Assembly (NCBI GenBank): GCA_023663825.1
Contig: JAMPGQ010000015.1
Coordinates: forward strand, 1-36,845
DNA length: 36,845 nt
Direction of reading: 5' to 3'
Origin: Anaeroplasma bactoclasticum
GTDB taxonomy: Bacteria; Bacillota_I; Bacilli_A; Acholeplasmatales; Anaeroplasmataceae
A program made the position numbers and the translations under genes. The notes under the pieces are model-generated. The model had not been told where the DNA came from. It made no database searches and saw only the letters and a list, made by a program, of their open reading frames with translations. Position 1 is the stretch's first letter, and the number at the start of each line of letters is the position of its first letter. Below, piece after piece: positions 838-23,922 of this stretch.

Positions 838-2083
838 TTTAATATTAACTCTTGGACTATTTTGCTTAAGCTTTGAGATATCTAAAAAAAAGATAAATAT
901 TCTTTATTGCTTAAGCGCTTTTATTCTGCCTTTAATACTGCTATGCATATTTACAAATCATCCTTTGATTCTACCTCTTTTTGGGTTACAGTGGAATGTT
1001 CTTCTTGCGAGTTGTATTGCTTTAGAATTATTGCTCCTTATTCCTATAATTCAGAAGAAAAAGGAAGCAGCTATTACACTACTACTTCCCTTCCTCATCG
1101 ATCTTATCGCAAAGGAAATCGTAAGCATAGTTTTTAATATACCATTTAGCGAATTAAATCGACCAGAATTTTTTTACTTTACGACTTATCTATTTATTGT
1201 AATTTTTCTTTTCTATATTATCTCTTTCTTTGTTTTTAAGGTAATCTCAAATCGCAATCGATATGAAGAAGATAAAAGCTTTTTAGTCCTTATTTTTATA
1301 TTAGCAGGAATAGAAATAATAGCGTTTTTTATCATTAATTATAATTTATCAAAAATAATGATAACAAATCCTTCTTCTTATATTTATACAATTCTTTTTA
1401 ACCTTCTTCTAATACTTCTTTTTGGAATAACCATTTCATCTAGTATAATTTTATATAGAAAGATAAAAGATAAATATGCTAAAATCAATCAAATGAAGGA
1501 AGCTCTTTTAGAGAAAAATTATCAAGAGATTTATATTGAATCTCAGGAAGAATTATTTAAACTTAGACATGATCTTGCAAATGTAGTAGAAACAATTCAT
1601 ACATATCAAATACCTGAAATTAAAGAAATCAAGGAAGATTTGGCAAGTAAATTACGTGAACAAAAAATATTTTACACAGATAATAAAGTTATCAATTCTA
1701 TTCTCGTCAATAAAATAAAAGCAGCAAAAGAAAAGTATATTCTTGTTGAAGCAAATATTTCTATTCACCACGAAATTGGTATTTCTAACGCAGATATTAT
1801 TTCCCTCATTTCTAATCTTATGGATAATGCTATTGAAGCATTAGAAAATGAAGAAGATAAAAGACTGATTCTTGAAATTGGCACTACAGAGCATGGTATA
1901 GAAATTCTGGTGAAAAATACTTGCCATGCAATTCATAAAACTAAAAAGTCAAATCCAAAATATCATGGATTCGGACTGAAAATCATTAAAGAAATCATCA
2001 ATAAATATAAAGGAAACTACACATCAATTCTAGAAAATCAAATGTACACTACAATGATTTTCATTCCTTATAAGACAATGTAA
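812..2083 (+). CDS. GHKL sensor histidine kinase (AgrC/ComD-like)
   Basis: This is a membrane sensor kinase of 423 residues, the partner of the LytTR regulator. About seven hydrophobic segments fill residues 1-212. A short coiled-coil linker follows, then the H-box LRHDLAN with H253 as the likely phosphorylated histidine. The ATP-binding GHKL domain shows the N-box NLMDNAIEAL (335-344) and the G-box GFGLKIIKEI (386-395). This layout matches AgrC/BlpH/ComD kinases that sense peptides, but no AgrB or AgrD-like gene is present, so the signal is unknown. A 13-base inverted repeat overlaps the stop codon and ends the operon. Confidence 0.88.
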   Translation: MNYLFPIINLILTLGLFCLSFEISKKKINILYCLSAFILPLILLCIFTNHPLILPLFGLQWNVLLASCIALELLLLIPIIQKKKEAAITLLLPFLIDLIAKEIVSIVFNIPFSELNRPEFFYFTTYLFIVIFLFYIISFFVFKVISNRNRYEEDKSFLVLIFILAGIEIIAFFIINYNLSKIMITNPSSYIYTILFNLLLILLFGITISSSIILYRKIKDKYAKINQMKEALLEKNYQEIYIESQEELFKLRHDLANVVETIHTYQIPEIKEIKEDLASKLREQKIFYTDNKVINSILVNKIKAAKEKYILVEANISIHHEIGISNADIISLISNLMDNAIEALENEEDKRLILEIGTTEHGIEILVKNTCHAIHKTKKSNPKYHGFGLKIIKEIINKYKGNYTSILENQMYTTMIFIPYKTM

Positions 2084-2121
2084 GGCTAGTTCAGATTGGT
2101 TTTTACATTGTCTTATTTTAT
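2071..2121 (+). terminator. Intrinsic terminator of the two-component operon
   Basis: TAAGACAATGTAA (2071-2083) and TTACATTGTCTTA (2103-2115) are perfect 13-base inverted arms around a 19-base loop, followed by a T-rich tail. The left arm contains the kinase stop codon. The far side overlaps the 3' end of the opposing nuclease gene, so it could serve both strands. Confidence 0.75.
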
Positions 2122-3124
2122 TTATCAACAAGCGCCTTATGTTCAGTAGCAATTTCTTTTTGCAACTCTTCTTCGCTAGGCAAGTATGTTCTATATTTCG
2201 AAGTGAAAATTTGCGTGTTTTCCTCTGATAAAGTATAATGTACAACCGAATCATTTCTATCTGCACATAGCAAAATACCGATAGGGGATTATCTCCTTCG
2301 TTCATCATTTCACAAGTGTAGTAGTTAACATATATTTGCATTTGTCCAATATCTTGATGCGTAAGCTTACTAGTTTTCAAATCGATTAAGACAAAGCATT
2401 TTAAAATATAGTTGTAGAAAACAAGATCTATATAAAAATGCTGAGTGTCAAAGGAAATTCTATGCTGCCTACCAACGAAGCAAAAACCACGACCAAGTTC
2501 AAGTAAGAATTTTTGTAAATGGTCCATAAGAGCTTGTTCCAAGTCAGATTCGTAGAAACTCGAGTTCTGTTCCAATCCCAAAAACTCTAACACATACAGA
2601 TCACGTATAATATCTTCAGGTGTTCTAGCAGTTTCTTTTTTAGTAGTATCTTCTACTACATCGTAATTTCCATGGCTTGCAAGTAAACGATGATAAGAAA
2701 AGGTATTCATCTGTCGTTCCAACTGACGCGTACTCCAATTTGCCCTGATGCACTCATCCATATAAAATTTGCGTACCTTTTCATCTTCAACTTTTAGAAG
2801 CATTCTGTAATGAGTCCAACTCAATTGGTCACGCAGTGCGTGGCGAATTGGAAAAGCAAGATAAAATTGACGCATATATTTCAAATTTGTGACAGTAAAA
2901 CCTTTCCCATAGTCAGCTGTCATTTTCTTTGAAAGCTCTTCAATCAGCTTAGCCCCATAGTCAGCAGCTTGATTACCACATTGCTTATCAACAATACTTT
3001 TACAGATTTCCCAATATGCTTCCACCATTGCAAAATTTGCAGTGGAATAAACCTTTGCTCGTGCACTCGAAAGTATCTTTTTAATTTGTTCATAAAATGT
3101 TACATCCATTATTTCATTAGCCAT
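2118..3124 (-). pseudogene. YhcG/DUF1016-family PD-(D/E)XK nuclease, frameshifted
   Basis: The N-terminal part (DUF1016_N, about residues 1-160) contains YWEICKSIV, FTVTNLKYMRQFY and LSWTHYRMLL. The C-terminal nuclease part contains FYIDLVFYN and CFVLIDLK, the PD-(D/E)XK-like core. After MNEGDNP the reading frame breaks at a CCCC run (complement of 2284-2287). Adding one C restores the family continuation PIGILLCADR and a natural stop at 2118-2120. Without it the frame runs on to 2030 in non-homologous sequence, inside the opposing kinase gene. The start at 3124 follows AAAGGAG. Family members are accessory nucleases found in or near restriction and defence loci. The break could be a real mutation or a homopolymer sequencing error, and it removes only the last 50-60 residues. 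Confidence 0.8.
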
Positions 3125-3271
3125 AATTTTTCTCCTTTAATAGTTATACTATCTTTTTTCACCTCTGTGGGGAAAGATATCAAACCACATATCAAATACT
3201 ATTTTTATTTTGGATTATCTCCTAAGTCTTTTTGCTAATCACTCTTCTGCCTCCGTTGTCTTATTTTAGAG

Positions 3272-3422
3272 TGGAAAAATAAAAGCGTGATGAATTTTAT
3301 TAGTACATTGTACTAATCATTTTCAATCACGCTATCCATTCGGAAAACCACTCTACTACATTCAATTGTCTAAAGCCATCTATAGGAAGTAGAGCTCTTA
3401 CCTATAAACTTCTTCTAGCTAC
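3272..3422 (-). ncRNA. Structured leader RNA, copy A (unassigned class)
   Basis: The RNA is read right to left from an extended -10 (TGGTATAAT, complement of 3429-3437). A first stem pairs 3401-3408 with 3379-3386. Its loop contains GCTCTAC (complement of 3389-3395), which can pair with GTAGAG (complement of 3351-3356) to form a pseudoknot. A long 3' hairpin with outer arms AGCGTGAT/ATCACGCT and inner arms ATTAGTACA/TGTACTAAT ends in TTTTATTTTT. A homologous copy lies at 23039-23195 and the stems covary between the two. The next gene downstream is the frameshifted DUF1016 nuclease, about 150 bases further on. The rest of the 3125-3588 gap holds no gene that I can see. Confidence 0.6.
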
Positions 3423-3588
3423 ATATTTATTATACCAAAAAGTGTATTTCTTTTGAGAAGTATACACATATAGTTTTTTATATTTTTTTAATTCTTTTAT
3501 GATAGGTTTTTGGGAGTACTTTTAACAACTTAAATTTTAAAGTATACTTCAAATTTAAAACCAGCTATATATGCTTTTTCATCTTCAT

Positions 3589-18962: not shown

Positions 18963-21281
18963 TCACATCCTTGTTATCTTAATATTCACATCTTTATTTG
19001 TTTGATACATTGGATAAATTTCGCTAATCTTATCCATAACGGCATCTTCTACAATTTTAAGCTGAATCGTAAAACGATATGTATCATGTAAGCGAAAAGG
19101 AAGAGCTTCTGCTGGTCCTAAGATTTCACTTTCCTTAGCTACCGATTTTAGTGCCTGTATCATACGAAAGGCCTCTGTCCTAGCCATAGATAAGTTTTCA
19201 GATTCTATCATAATTTCAATTGCTAAAGAAAAGGGTGGCATACCTGTAATCTTTCGATTAGCAATTTCCTTTTTAAAGAAACCATCAAAATCATTTCTCA
19301 TTGAGGTTTCTAAAACAAAATGCTCAGGCTGATAGGTTTGGATAATGACCTCACCCGTTTTTTCTCCACGTCCAGCCCGACCAGAAACCTGTTCAATTAA
19401 ATTAAAGGCTGTCATATTAGAAGCATAACTAGGATAATGTAATGCCAAATCTGCATTCACTACACCTACTAATGTTACATCTGCAAAATCTAATCCTTTA
19501 GCAATCATCTGTGTTCCTACCATAATATCTGCCTCATGATTCTTAAACTTTTCAAAAGCAGATTCATAATCCACAATCTTAGAGGTTGTATCCAAATCTA
19601 CACGAAGCACCCTAGCTTCTGGAAGTAAATTCTTTATTTCCTCCATTACCTTTTCTGTCCCACTACCAACAAATCGAATTTTAGAGCTTCCACAGGATGG
19701 ACAATTTTCCACATTCATTTGTTTATACCCACAATGATGACAGACAAGCGTATTCGTGCTAGAATGATAGGTAAGAGATACATCACAATGTGGGCACTGA
19801 ATAACCTCACCACAGCTTCTGCACATTACAAAGGAAGAATGCCCTCTGCGGTTTAAGAATAATATAGATTGTTCATTTTTCTTATAAACCTCTACTAATC
19901 TTTTTTGTAAAGGTTTTGAAAACACAGATTTATTTCCTAATTTCAATTCTTCACGCATATCCACAAGAGTCTTTTTTGGTAAAGGATGCTCATTTGCACG
20001 TGTTGGCATAGAAAGTAATTCATATTCTCCTTCTATAGCCTGATAATAATCACATACATTTGGTGTAGCACTTCCTAATATGAGTGGGCACTGATGAGTC
20101 TTACTTCTAAGCTTAGCAATTTCAATGGCACTGTATTTTGGATTATTATCCTGAATATAGGATTGTTCATGCTCTTCATCAATAATGATAATTCCCAAAT
20201 GATCTAAAGGAGCAAATATCGCTGATCTAGCTCCAATCACAATACGAACCTGATGCGTTAATATTTTCTTCCATGCTGTATAGCGATCATAAACAGATAA
20301 TCTAGAATGTAATATAGCTACTTCATTGCCAAAATGGCTTTGAAAAATTGCAGTTATTTGAGGAGTTAAGGAAATTTCAGGGACTAAAAGTAAGGCTTGT
20401 TTTCCTGATGCTAAAACATCCTTAATCCAGTGAATATAGACTAAGGTCTTTCCACTTCCTGTTACACCATGTAAGAGATAGGTTTTAGTCTCGTTGTAAT
20501 GTATAGAGTCGTAAGCCTTTTTTTGAGATGCATTTAATTCATATGCTGGAATTTCAGATACTAAGATATTATCCTGTTCTAATACCTCTTTCTTGTAGGA
20601 ATCAAGAATGCCTTGCTTGATTAAAGTATCAATTACTCCTTTAGAAAATCCTGTGTTTTCTAATACCATAGGAATTGATGTTGCATCATCTAATTCCTTA
20701 AGATATTCTAAAAGCTGGATTCCTTGTTTACTTTTAGGAGAAATTGTATCATCTTTTATATAGATATATTCAATCGTTTTTTCTTTTCTGTTTCGTTTGA
20801 ATCTTGTATCTAACTCTACAATACCCTCTTTATGGGCTTTAAAGATTCTGTTTAGTTCCTCAGGAGTACGATTATCAATCCAAATTTCTTTTTTGCCTTT
20901 AAATATATCTTCTAGTTCTAAAGGAATCTCCTTTACCCTAGCAATCTTTTGATATTTGATTTTTAGAGCTGAAGGAATCATTGTCTGTAAGGCTACAGCG
21001 TAATAGGAAAAGTTATGATTTGCAATAAACTTTGCAAGTCCAACAAATTCTTCATTTAAGACAGGATAAACATCTATGATATCACTGATTTCACGTAGTT
21101 TTTTCTTAAAAGCCGTTTTCTCTTTGAGTTCTACTACAAATCCTAATACTGTTCGATTTCCAAAAATCACACGAACTCGATAACCCACTTTCAAAATAGA
21201 TTCTAAATGAGATGGAACCATATAATCAAAGGTTTGATTTACTTGTTTAGCTGCAATGTCCACAACAATGCTTGCAATCAT
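18963..21281 (-). CDS. priA: PriA, primosomal replication restart helicase
   Basis: PriA is a 3'-5' superfamily 2 helicase that reloads the replisome at stalled forks. It has 772 residues. The DNA-binding N-terminal part starts IASIVVDIAAKQVNQTFDY. Helicase motifs are GVTGSGKT (Walker A), DEEHEQSY (Walker B), GSATPN, FLNRRGHS and QVSGRAGRG. Two zinc-binding clusters are visible (CRSCGEVIQCPHC and CHHCGY to CPSCG). The start follows AAGGATGGG. A leader with a SAM-clan riboswitch and terminator lies directly upstream, which is unusual for this gene. Confidence 0.96.
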   Translation of the reverse strand: MIASIVVDIAAKQVNQTFDYMVPSHLESILKVGYRVRVIFGNRTVLGFVVELKEKTAFKKKLREISDIIDVYPVLNEEFVGLAKFIANHNFSYYAVALQTMIPSALKIKYQKIARVKEIPLELEDIFKGKKEIWIDNRTPEELNRIFKAHKEGIVELDTRFKRNRKEKTIEYIYIKDDTISPKSKQGIQLLEYLKELDDATSIPMVLENTGFSKGVIDTLIKQGILDSYKKEVLEQDNILVSEIPAYELNASQKKAYDSIHYNETKTYLLHGVTGSGKTLVYIHWIKDVLASGKQALLLVPEISLTPQITAIFQSHFGNEVAILHSRLSVYDRYTAWKKILTHQVRIVIGARSAIFAPLDHLGIIIIDEEHEQSYIQDNNPKYSAIEIAKLRSKTHQCPLILGSATPNVCDYYQAIEGEYELLSMPTRANEHPLPKKTLVDMREELKLGNKSVFSKPLQKRLVEVYKKNEQSILFLNRRGHSSFVMCRSCGEVIQCPHCDVSLTYHSSTNTLVCHHCGYKQMNVENCPSCGSSKIRFVGSGTEKVMEEIKNLLPEARVLRVDLDTTSKIVDYESAFEKFKNHEADIMVGTQMIAKGLDFADVTLVGVVNADLALHYPSYASNMTAFNLIEQVSGRAGRGEKTGEVIIQTYQPEHFVLETSMRNDFDGFFKKEIANRKITGMPPFSLAIEIMIESENLSMARTEAFRMIQALKSVAKESEILGPAEALPFRLHDTYRFTIQLKIVEDAVMDKISEIYPMYQTNKDVNIKITRM

Positions 21282-21313: not shown

Positions 21314-21439
21314 AAAAACCATCGTAATGATGGCTTTTTAATCAGTAACATTCTTTTGCCATCATACAAGCATTAGCACCTTACTTAAAAGGTTGCTGAA
21401 GAGTCACAGAGCTTGTCTCTCATCTTCTCTTTATGGACA
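21314..21439 (-). promoter_or_regulatory. SAM-clan (SAM-I/IV-like) riboswitch with transcription attenuator
   Basis: The leader RNA shows the SAM-I core in order: ATGAGAG, CTCTTCAGCAACCT, AAGGTGCTAA. These match the S-box pieces flanking P3. CAAGC (complement of 21411-21415) can pair with GCTTG (complement of 21367-21371), as in the S-box pseudoknot. The P4 arm is absent, as in SAM-I/IV variants. ATGATGGC after the core (complement of 21358-21365) is exactly complementary to GCCATCAT, the left half of a terminator (complement of 21314-21338, CCATC/GATGG with a T5 tail). Ligand binding should therefore favour termination. Confidence 0.6.
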
Positions 21440-21512: not shown

Positions 21513-22745
21513 TTACTTGGAACTTTTTTTGATAGATTTAGGGGCGGGTTTTTTGACCACATTTGTAGATTGAATAGGCTTTGGCTCTGGTTTTACTGAT
21601 TTTACTGGTGTTTTTTTGGATGATACTAGTTTCTTCTTAGACGCTTCCTCTTGATTAGATTGAGACTTTAGATTTTTTAAAGCCAGCTGTGGATGTGAAG
21701 ATTTAGTACTTATTGCCTTTGATTCGATTGCTTTTGTAACCTTGACAACCTTTTTCTGCTTTTCGATTTTTTTTAATTGTTCTAAATCATACTCCTTTTG
21801 AGTAATTAAAGCTTTGCCTTTAGGTTGTGATAACAATCCCTTATTTATTAAAGATTTTTGTTTCAATTCCACAATAGCAGATTTAAAACGTTCTGTCACA
21901 CCATCCTGTAAAACCTCTACACCATTATTAAATAATTTCTTAAATAATTTATAGATCGTTGGTCTACTAGAAAACATTTCAAATTCAATTTGCTGAACAT
22001 AATAATGCATTCTTGCAAGACGCTCTATAGAAGCATCTCCATCTGCAAAATAATTATCTATATCGGCACATACTTTTGTACAATCTCTAGAGCATTCCTT
22101 AGCACTATTTAAATCTTTAATAATTGGACTAATTAACGGATAAAAGCCGATGATTAGGATCAAATATTGGCTTGTCTCTTTTTTCAAAAAAATGGCACCC
22201 ACAAAAATAGCAACAATAGCAATTAAAATGAATAAATAAATATAAACAACTCTACTTAATAAATATTTATTTGTTGCAGCATTAATTCTGCAAATATAAA
22301 GGTAGCTATAATCATCTGTAATATCCTTTGGAACGCATACCGTATGATATTTCTCCTGCTGTCTCATTTTAGGAATTCCTCTTCGAATTGCTAGTTCATT
22401 CAAATCATTGGTAAGCTCACGATCATATTCGATTTTAGAGAAGGTAGAACCTGTAATTCCTGTTTCATAAAGCTGTAAGGAATAAATCGCATAATCCTTA
22501 TGCTTATTCACAAAAGAACTTGTTGATTCATTTATTAAAGTGATTGCAAAAGAAATAATCGTACATATAACATCAGAAATTTGATTGGTTTTAATCTGTG
22601 GTAAAACCGTAATAACAACTGGTATAATCGCTAACAGATATAAAAGAATCCTTATGATTTTTAATTCAAAAAACAAGCGATTTGAAGCATAGTAAAATTT
22701 GGCGTACTTATCTAATGCGCAACGTTCACTGACTTTATTCATCAT
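21513..22745 (-). CDS. Four-helix membrane protein, possible S-4TM-like, with a Lys/Pro-rich tail
   Basis: This is a 410-residue protein. Helix pair one spans about residues 30-72 (IIRILLYLLAIIPVVITVL and following). Helix pair two spans about 165-210 (LFILIAIVAIFVGAIF, YLILIIGFYPLI). The segment between is about 95 residues and soluble. A conserved-looking region follows (YVQQIEFEMFSSRPTIYKLF). The last 110 residues are rich in K, S, P and Q and probably disordered. The paired helices with a following basic R-P segment recall the S-4TM pore-forming effectors of nucleotide-dependent conflict systems, but I see no nucleotide synthase nearby and the match is by eye. A consensus promoter drives it alone. 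Confidence 0.5.
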   Translation of the reverse strand: MMNKVSERCALDKYAKFYYASNRLFFELKIIRILLYLLAIIPVVITVLPQIKTNQISDVICTIISFAITLINESTSSFVNKHKDYAIYSLQLYETGITGSTFSKIEYDRELTNDLNELAIRRGIPKMRQQEKYHTVCVPKDITDDYSYLYICRINAATNKYLLSRVVYIYLFILIAIVAIFVGAIFLKKETSQYLILIIGFYPLISPIIKDLNSAKECSRDCTKVCADIDNYFADGDASIERLARMHYYVQQIEFEMFSSRPTIYKLFKKLFNNGVEVLQDGVTERFKSAIVELKQKSLINKGLLSQPKGKALITQKEYDLEQLKKIEKQKKVVKVTKAIESKAISTKSSHPQLALKNLKSQSNQEEASKKKLVSSKKTPVKSVKPEPKPIQSTNVVKKPAPKSIKKSSK

Positions 22746-22779: not shown

Positions 22780-22808
22780 ATTATAAGGGGTATTTACTTT
22801 TTTGTCAA
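22780..22808 (-). promoter_or_regulatory. Promoter of the four-helix membrane protein gene
   Basis: TTGACA (complement of 22803-22808), 17 bases, TATAAT (complement of 22780-22785). The -35 box lies inside the end of the small HTH gene, so the two genes need not share a transcript. Confidence 0.8.
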
Positions 22809-23021
22809 TAAAAGGCATGCCTTATTTGTTAATAATCTGCGATAATTTGACTTTTTTTGACCATTATCATAAATCAATTTTTCTTCTTTAAAAATGCGTA
22901 TATACTTTGTTACAGTTGACCTACCCAAATAAAGACATTCACACATTTTTTCTATAGTAAAAGAAGGATGCTCAGCAATGAATTGAAGCAATTTTATTTC
23001 AGTTTCATTATATTTTCTCAT
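22794..23021 (-). CDS. Small winged-HTH DNA-binding protein
   Basis: This is a 75-residue protein. Residues about 7-52 form a helix-turn-helix of the HTH_11/DeoR-like type (LLQFIAEHPSFTIEKMCECL, then GRSTVTKYIRIFKEEKLI), followed by a short basic tail. No ligand domain is present. The start at 23021 has AGGAG 8 bases upstream; an upstream extension to 23093 lies inside the leader RNA and is rejected. It is directly downstream of structured leader B, whose terminator-like hairpin ends next to its ribosome binding site, so the leader probably controls it. Confidence 0.7.
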   Translation of the reverse strand: MRKYNETEIKLLQFIAEHPSFTIEKMCECLYLGRSTVTKYIRIFKEEKLIYDNGQKKSNYRRLLTNKACLLLTKK

Positions 23022-23038: not shown

Positions 23039-23195
23039 AAAATAAAAGCGTGATTAAATTTGATGAATACAATTTTGTACTCATCATCTTCAATCACGCT
23101 ATCTTACCAATGTAAGAAACTCTCTCTACGACAATTTAGTTGTCTTAAGCCATCTATAGAAAGTAGAGCCCTTATCTATAGACTTTTACTAGCCA
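23039..23195 (-). ncRNA. Structured leader RNA, copy B (unassigned class)
   Basis: This is the homologue of the RNA at 3272-3422. The first stem pairs TCTATAGA (complement of 23175-23182) with TCTATAGA (complement of 23153-23160). The loop GCTCTAC (complement of 23163-23169) can pair with GTAGAG (complement of 23124-23129). A small GACAA/TTGTC hairpin follows. The 3' hairpin has outer arms AGCGTGATT/AATCACGCT and inner arms GATGAGTACAA/TTGTATTCATC, ending in TTTTATTTTTT. Compared with copy A, pairs change on both sides (for example T·G to C-G, G-C to A-T). The hairpin abuts the ribosome binding site of the small HTH gene. Confidence 0.65.
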
Positions 23196-23200
23196 CCTTC

Positions 23201-23238
23201 AATATATCACAAAAAATGAACTTTGTGAAGTCCATTTT
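23201..23238 (-). promoter_or_regulatory. Leader B promoter embedded in the udk terminator
   Basis: TTCACA (complement of 23224-23229), 17 bases, TATATT (complement of 23201-23206) form the leader B promoter. The -35 box falls in the loop of a hairpin AAATGGACTT/AAGTTCATTT followed by a T run, which is the likely udk terminator. Confidence 0.65.
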
Positions 23239-23856
23239 TTATTTTACTATATCTTTTATTTTTGCAGCCAAAATTTCAATTGCTACATCATGCTTCGTGT
23301 CATTAGGAATAATGATATCTGCAAAACGCTTTGTAGGAGCAACGTATTCATCATACATTGGTTTTACAGTACTTAAATATTGCACAATTACACTATCTAA
23401 ATCTCTGCCACGTTCATGAATATCTCTTTTTAATCTACGAATAAAACGAACATCTGGATCAGACTCTACATAAATCAAGATATCACTTAAGCTTCGAATT
23501 CTAGAATCGTATAAGGCAAGGATTCCTTCTAATATAATTACCTTAGTTGCAGAAATAGAGATTGTATCTTCCTTTTTACGATTATGCTCCTTAAAGTCAT
23601 AAACTGGGGAATGAATTGTCTGCCCATCCATCAATTTTGATAAATCTTCGTATAATAAGTCTAAATCAAAAGAATTCGGATGGTCATAATTGATTTTCCT
23701 TCTTTCCTCTAAAGATAAGTCATCTAAAGCCTTATAGTAATTATCCTGACAAATGACTGCCACATCCTCTGAATGAAAATGATGGATAATCTCATCTACA
23801 ACTGTAGTCTTTCCACTTGCTGTACCACCAGCTATTGCAATTAAAATTGGTTTCAT
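23239..23856 (-). CDS. udk: Uridine kinase
   Basis: This enzyme of the pyrimidine salvage pathway phosphorylates uridine and cytidine. It has 205 residues. The Walker A motif is AGGTASGKTT, followed by CQDNYYK, NYDHPNSFDLDLL, VILEGILALYD and the R-rich lid region RRLKRDIHERGRD. The ATG at 23856 follows GGAGG; a start at 23874 lies upstream of that site and is rejected. It ends at a hairpin that also holds the leader B promoter. Confidence 0.95.
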   Translation of the reverse strand: MKPILIAIAGGTASGKTTVVDEIIHHFHSEDVAVICQDNYYKALDDLSLEERRKINYDHPNSFDLDLLYEDLSKLMDGQTIHSPVYDFKEHNRKKEDTISISATKVIILEGILALYDSRIRSLSDILIYVESDPDVRFIRRLKRDIHERGRDLDSVIVQYLSTVKPMYDEYVAPTKRFADIIIPNDTKHDVAIEILAAKIKDIVK

Positions 23857-23922
23857 ACTCTTTCCTCCATACATCTCTTCTATTCTACCACAAATAAACT
23901 AAAATTACGACAAAAAATAAAA

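Follow-up and report, generated by a model that had tools for sequence, protein, structure and literature searches.

The window, the whole 36,845-nt stretch of DNA analysed here, contains two copies of a pseudoknotted RNA, whose family is new in that it is absent from Rfam 15. The family is dispersed over one bacterial genus and the gene that follows the RNA varies from copy to copy, neither of which could be seen by the earlier note on this DNA. The RNA probably represents a new module with a control or antitoxin-like role. As a system, it is a variant of the modules composed of a non-coding RNA (ncRNA), a terminator, and a gene. Our tentative proposal is that this genus-restricted structured ncRNA is prematurely terminated, that low read-through leads into accessory genes, and that the RNA product is antitoxin-like. 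A structured RNA family placed ahead of several unrelated toxin- or defence-like genes in a lineage of uncultured gut bacteria would mean either a further, repeat-free antitoxin RNA or a shared sensor that controls accessory genes. RNA antitoxins are, to our knowledge, known from few architectures.

Anatomy of the RNA at the udk Locus

The features of the copy at the udk locus (copy B) and of its downstream gene are listed below.

23206-23038, reverse strand: structured RNA copy B from promoter to terminator, with the promoter followed by a pseudoknotted domain of ~100 nt and then a strong intrinsic terminator
23201-23229, reverse strand: sigma-A-type promoter, TTCACA (23229-23224)-17-TATATT (23206-23201), with an extended -10 TG
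23208-23227, reverse strand: dyad CACAA-N10-TTGTG over the promoter, a possible operator to which HTH75 may bind
23100-23194, reverse strand: RNA core (P1-P4), from alignment, fold, and covariation
23194-23191/23151-23148, reverse strand: P1
23183-23171/23163-23151, reverse strand: P2 hairpin
23164-23170, reverse strand: P2 loop GGCUCUA (7 nt), the 5' strand of the pseudoknot, with CUCU invariant in 27/27 copies
23144-23140/23134-23130, reverse strand: P3
23124-23128, reverse strand: UAGAG, the 3' strand of the pseudoknot, with 97.8% of cells paired and one pair changed on both sides
23117-23112/23107-23102, reverse strand: P4
23037-23099, reverse strand: long intrinsic-terminator hairpin GCGUGAUUGAA...AAUCACGC and U tract, from the fold, with 7/11 lower-stem pairs changed on both sides
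22794-23021, reverse strand: HTH75, a 75-aa winged helix-turn-helix protein with a weak HTH_Mga/MarR-like match, the read-through gene of the RNA

The promoter of copy B begins right after udk (23239-23874). The earlier note had proposed a leader with its own promoter, and such a promoter was found. One correction is needed: 23206 is where the -10 box begins, and transcription is predicted to start near 23194. The terminator stem-loop occupies 23099-23048 and the T tract ends at ~23037, 15 nt upstream of the HTH75 gene. The ribosome binding site AAGGAG (23036-23031) and the start codon ATG (23021) follow, in agreement with the long hairpin and U tail that had been read next to the ribosome binding site of a 75-residue HTH protein. 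The pairing proposed between the loop GCTCTAC and GTAGAG is the same helix as GGCUCUA/UAGAG, one pair longer.

Distribution and Novelty of the RNA Family

The element at 3272-3422, which the earlier note considered related, is the same RNA as copy B, with the same anatomy (78% identity, E 1e-27). Here it is called copy A. The first full-length gene after it encodes a nuclease, and this arrangement recurs at another locus of the genus (G3_C8b).

3271-3424, reverse strand: copy A, from 78% identity, alignment, and fold
2030-3124, reverse strand: DUF1016/YhcG-type PDDEXK nuclease, separated from copy A by a gap of ~150 nt

A search with copy B revealed about ten copies in its own genome. Six are full-length, two are cut by contig ends, and several are degenerate, retaining mostly the terminator. 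With a covariance model, the search of related genomes that the earlier note had suggested yielded 27 full-length copies, with compensatory changes among them. All come from one Anaeroplasmataceae genus, in which 8 of 11 genomes carry full-length copies, several of them just one. Among 55 genomes from the rest of the family, 160 from the order, 395 from the class, and 392 from the phylum, there was no match; the filter used was strict and may miss weak ones. A weak match in G054, of the same order (E 0.001), was dropped because it has no terminator. An exact-pattern scan of 84,980 species matched only Anaeroplasmataceae or "uncultured Mollicutes" MAGs, and the scan of viral contigs gave no match.

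The earlier note recognized no known riboswitch in this element, and Rfam gives the same answer. At the gathering level of Rfam 15, only an unrelated SAM riboswitch (21356-21439) was found in the window. At relaxed thresholds (E up to 5), nothing was above chance, and the divergent family members were also unmatched. The abiF RNA (RF03085) was not matched at either threshold. No earlier description of the family was found in a comparison that stops short of the 3161 candidates of PMC8040213. The suggestion of a new cis-regulatory RNA or sRNA thus stands, since no Rfam family matched and compensated homologues exist. RNA families confined to a single genus can escape Rfam-style searches.

Conservation of the Secondary Structure

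The fold energy is 6.4 SD below that of dinucleotide shuffles for copy B and 4.4 SD below for copy A. In the alignment of 27 copies, 93.7% of cells pair under the named structure, and no slid version comes near. The covarying stems claimed from two copies are borne out: 19 of 44 pairs changed on both sides versus a shuffled mean of 6.2 ± 1.3, figures that represent support and not a probability, as the shuffles ignore relatedness among copies. Changes on both sides are found in P2 (6), the two parts of the terminator (7 and 3), and P1, P4, and the pseudoknot (1 each), with none in P3.

In the divergent copy G5_C9, the P2 stem is almost wholly different while the 7-nt loop is the same, and the loop consensus of the family is an invariant RRCUCUR. 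The pseudoknot pairing CUCUA/UAGAG is replaced by CUCUG/CAGAG in G10_C29, a double change, and it is weakened in C33 and C58. The predicted pseudoknot rests on near-invariance and this one compensatory change, and the evidence for helices is strongest for P2 and the terminator.

Genes Downstream of the RNA

Of 29 copies, 25 have a promoter at a constant distance upstream. The terminator is followed within 70 nt by the start of a same-strand ORF of 75 aa or more in 18 of 27 copies, and in eight of these the distance is 13-15 nt. Because such a gap is too short for a separate promoter, these closely spaced genes would depend on read-through. The close partners are HTH75, a 162-aa protein, 151-aa and 115-aa proteins, RhuM with a Fic/Doc-like C-terminus, and a RecQ-like helicase. 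Genes for DUF1016 nuclease, Fic, and DUF4143/AAA_14 are found further downstream of some copies. The partners are united not by being HTH genes but by their accessory, often toxin- or defence-like character. The identity of the RNA core is 0.907 for copies that share a genome but not a partner and 0.913 for copies that share a partner but not a genome. The RNA tree is poorly resolved.

The 162-aa partner is observed at four loci, sometimes in tandem, and is under purifying selection. Three tandem copies of its gene (L068 3189-4933) and two (L081 3174-4286) lie behind a single RNA, the extra copies having no RNA of their own. It is not followed by any recognized antitoxin gene. The low-confidence predicted structure of the protein (pLDDT 52) has as neighbours almost exclusively MazF/CcdB, along with AbiQ, CptN, and ToxN (Z 4.8-6.1). 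PF13958 gave no match in G003, G007, or G009, and a profile comparison of this partner to ToxN gave none either. In the profile of the 115/151-aa partner, the N-terminal half matches MazF (hhalign E 2.6e-4, probability 42%). The structure model of the second partner is also poor (pLDDT 39) and had no useful fold match, and plain Foldseek and PDB sequence searches returned nothing significant. Support for a toxin-like nature of these partners, as judged from predicted structures and profiles, is moderate. No relatives of the 162-aa protein were found in phage or plasmid records.

The RNA and the partner gene are not always together. At C33, only a decayed remnant of 21 codons is left of the 162-aa gene, and the RNA has drifted with its pseudoknot damaged. 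G2_C31 is accompanied only by a short remnant of the 115-aa gene. G5_C9 and G3_C6 are intact RNAs with no partner ORF, and the next operon, abrB-hsp20, has its own promoter. G004 and G023 encode homologues of the 162-aa protein without this RNA. The homologue in G004 (L135 ~900-1500) lies after a different, duplicated promoter and leader with a strong hairpin, which could be another leader type.

HTH75 and Its Neighborhood

The HTH75 ORF shows dN/dS of 0.11-0.43 over six species, indicating that it is a real gene under purifying selection. HTH75 is the partner in six species, at the udk locus every time. At this locus, the RNA and HTH75 occur jointly in G0, G3, G6, G7, G9, and G10. G1 and G5 lack both, and there a membrane-protein gene comes directly after udk.

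The dyad CACAA-N10-TTGTG, located between -35 and -10, is exact in all six udk-locus copies and in none of the 23 other copies. Copy B has the single exact match within the window. This distribution suggests that HTH75 may regulate its own promoter through the dyad.

The membrane protein (21513-22745, reverse strand) has weak similarity to SMODS-associated S_4TM. Its gene follows udk in most members of the genus and occurs sporadically in the family. It has a strong promoter of its own, TTGACA-17-TATAAT (12/12), which overlaps the end of HTH75. It was considered as a target regulated by the RNA and rejected because of this promoter and because G1 and G5 retain the gene although they lack the RNA.

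The SAM riboswitch RF00162 (21356-21439, reverse strand, 52 bits) is upstream of the gene at 18963-21281, whose N-terminus looks like priA as judged by eye only. Four related genomes (L069, L071, L085, and L086) have it at the same position.

Possible Function of the RNA

In our proposal, the promoter would produce an RNA of ~155 nt, whose 5' ~95 nt would fold with the P2 loop RRCUCUR paired to UAGAG and flanked by P1, P3, and P4. The terminator would stop most transcripts, leaving free RNA in excess. Where the gene lies close behind the RNA, it lacks a separate promoter and would be expressed by read-through. The accumulated RNA would then check the low-level, often toxin-like downstream protein, by analogy with type III antitoxins but without repeats, much as RCd22 checks AbiF. 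At copy B, HTH75 from read-through would probably feed back on the promoter via its dyad.

The observations that support this proposal are the covariation, the constant-distance promoter, and the closely spaced promoterless ORFs, together with the joint presence or absence of the RNA and HTH75 at the udk locus, where the S_4TM-like neighbour with its own promoter is not the partner. The resemblance of the 162-aa and 115/151-aa partners to MazF and type III toxins, the purifying selection on HTH75 and the 162-aa protein, and the decay of the RNA alongside the 162-aa gene at C33 also support it.

Type III antitoxin RNAs are tandem repeats of 34-50 nt that bind and thereby neutralize their toxins, which are ToxN/CptN/TenpN endoribonucleases with the MazF fold. 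The type III systems (ToxIN, CptIN, and TenpIN) have one promoter, a pseudoknotted RNA, a Rho-independent terminator, and then the gene. The same order is found in 18 of 27 copies and at copy B, and the small partner protein of some copies has a predicted fold resembling MazF/ToxN/CptN. In contrast to type III systems, the partners here are varied and not recognizably ToxN, and the partner of copy B is a winged helix protein. A canonical ToxIN locus is present in the same genome (L160 1501-2260, C25:19501-20879). It has two adjacent ToxN genes (PF13958), the second of which is preceded by a 34-nt × 3.0 array that is unrelated in sequence to this RNA. TRF finds this array, and the same search finds no tandem repeats at copy B.

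The proposal is also supported by a layout equal to that of RCd22-AbiF. In C. difficile, RCd22-AbiF has a sigma-A promoter, a 132-nt ncRNA, a terminator, and a toxin gene without its own promoter; the distance from the transcription start site to the ATG is 168 nt, there is no second promoter, and mainly the short RNA is made (PMC12373285). Copy B shares the order of promoter, ncRNA, terminator, and gene, with ~173 nt from the predicted start to the ATG. It differs in that the RNA is pseudoknotted without a duplicated motif and the partners are not AbiF- or Cas13-like. In type III loci and RCd22-AbiF, the short RNA has been demonstrated to be in excess, with only little read-through mRNA (PMC5086642, PMC12373285).

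Several observations count against the antitoxin reading. Nothing found here marks HTH75 or the RecQ-like partner as a toxin. In type III systems, antitoxin and toxin co-vary (PMC5086642), whereas the partners of this RNA are mutually unrelated and the RNA core does not clearly track them. There are no tandem repeats in the RNA, G5_C9 and G3_C6 are intact without a partner ORF, and the 162-aa homologues in G004 and G023 are without the RNA.

It is possible, although doubtful, that the RNA is a cis-acting attenuator, the pseudoknotted domain sensing a genus-wide signal and controlling termination before the ribosome binding site of accessory genes. A compact pseudoknotted domain followed by a terminator adjoining the ribosome binding site is common to this RNA and to attenuation leaders and riboswitches, and the RNA lies directly before a terminator and ribosome binding site in 18 of 27 copies. 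One RNA core before unrelated genes, without clear partner tracking, is what is expected of a shared sensor, and the lower stem of the terminator is more conserved in sequence than a plain terminator needs. Unlike those leaders, the family has no Rfam match, has mixed partners without a common metabolic theme, and includes two stand-alone intact copies with no dependent gene. A pairing between the pseudoknot strand and the 3' arm of the terminator is available in ~18-20 of 27 copies but is missing in the HTH75 type, including copy B. A simple helix search, which would miss a protein-mediated switch, found no mutually exclusive antiterminator common to all subtypes. Leader-peptide attenuation was rejected, as the frame from one recurrent ATG ranges from 2 to 40 codons and no leader peptide is conserved.

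Less likely still is a broad form of the antitoxin reading. One pseudoknotted RNA scaffold would serve as antitoxin or control RNA for many unrelated effectors (MazF-like proteins, RhuM/Fic, DUF1016 nuclease, and winged helix proteins) and would have spread as interchangeable read-through modules, forming a new repeat-free class of RNA-controlled accessory or defence module. Whether one RNA controls many unrelated proteins is the interesting question.

It is rather unlikely that the RNA is a multi-copy trans-acting sRNA family, acting on mRNAs or a protein through the RRCUCUR loop or other exposed strands, with the downstream genes as passengers. The copy number, the own promoter and terminator, the stand-alone intact copies G5_C9 and G3_C6, and the single copies in several genomes fit this explanation. 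However, the conserved loop is occupied by the pseudoknot, a promoterless ORF is closely coupled in most copies, and six species have the RNA alongside HTH75 at udk.

A dispersed repeat or non-autonomous mobile element that has no RNA function, to which about ten copies per genome and remnants retaining only the terminator hairpin might point, is very improbable and largely refuted by the compensatory changes on both sides in 6 of 7 helices; the similarity spans promoter to U tract with conserved ends that are not inverted repeats, and the udk-locus copies have kept their position across six species while diverging with compensatory changes.

Terminator-Only Remnants

Terminator-only remnants include C17, C50, C3, G9_C35, and G7_C22. 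The GCGTGAT stem is still conserved in those at L088 4960-5080, L089 5040-5159, L015 3638-3755, and L013 3419-3536, where the coordinates for L088, L089, and L013 follow the RNA orientation or the contig stretch. These remnants are likely to terminate the preceding genes.
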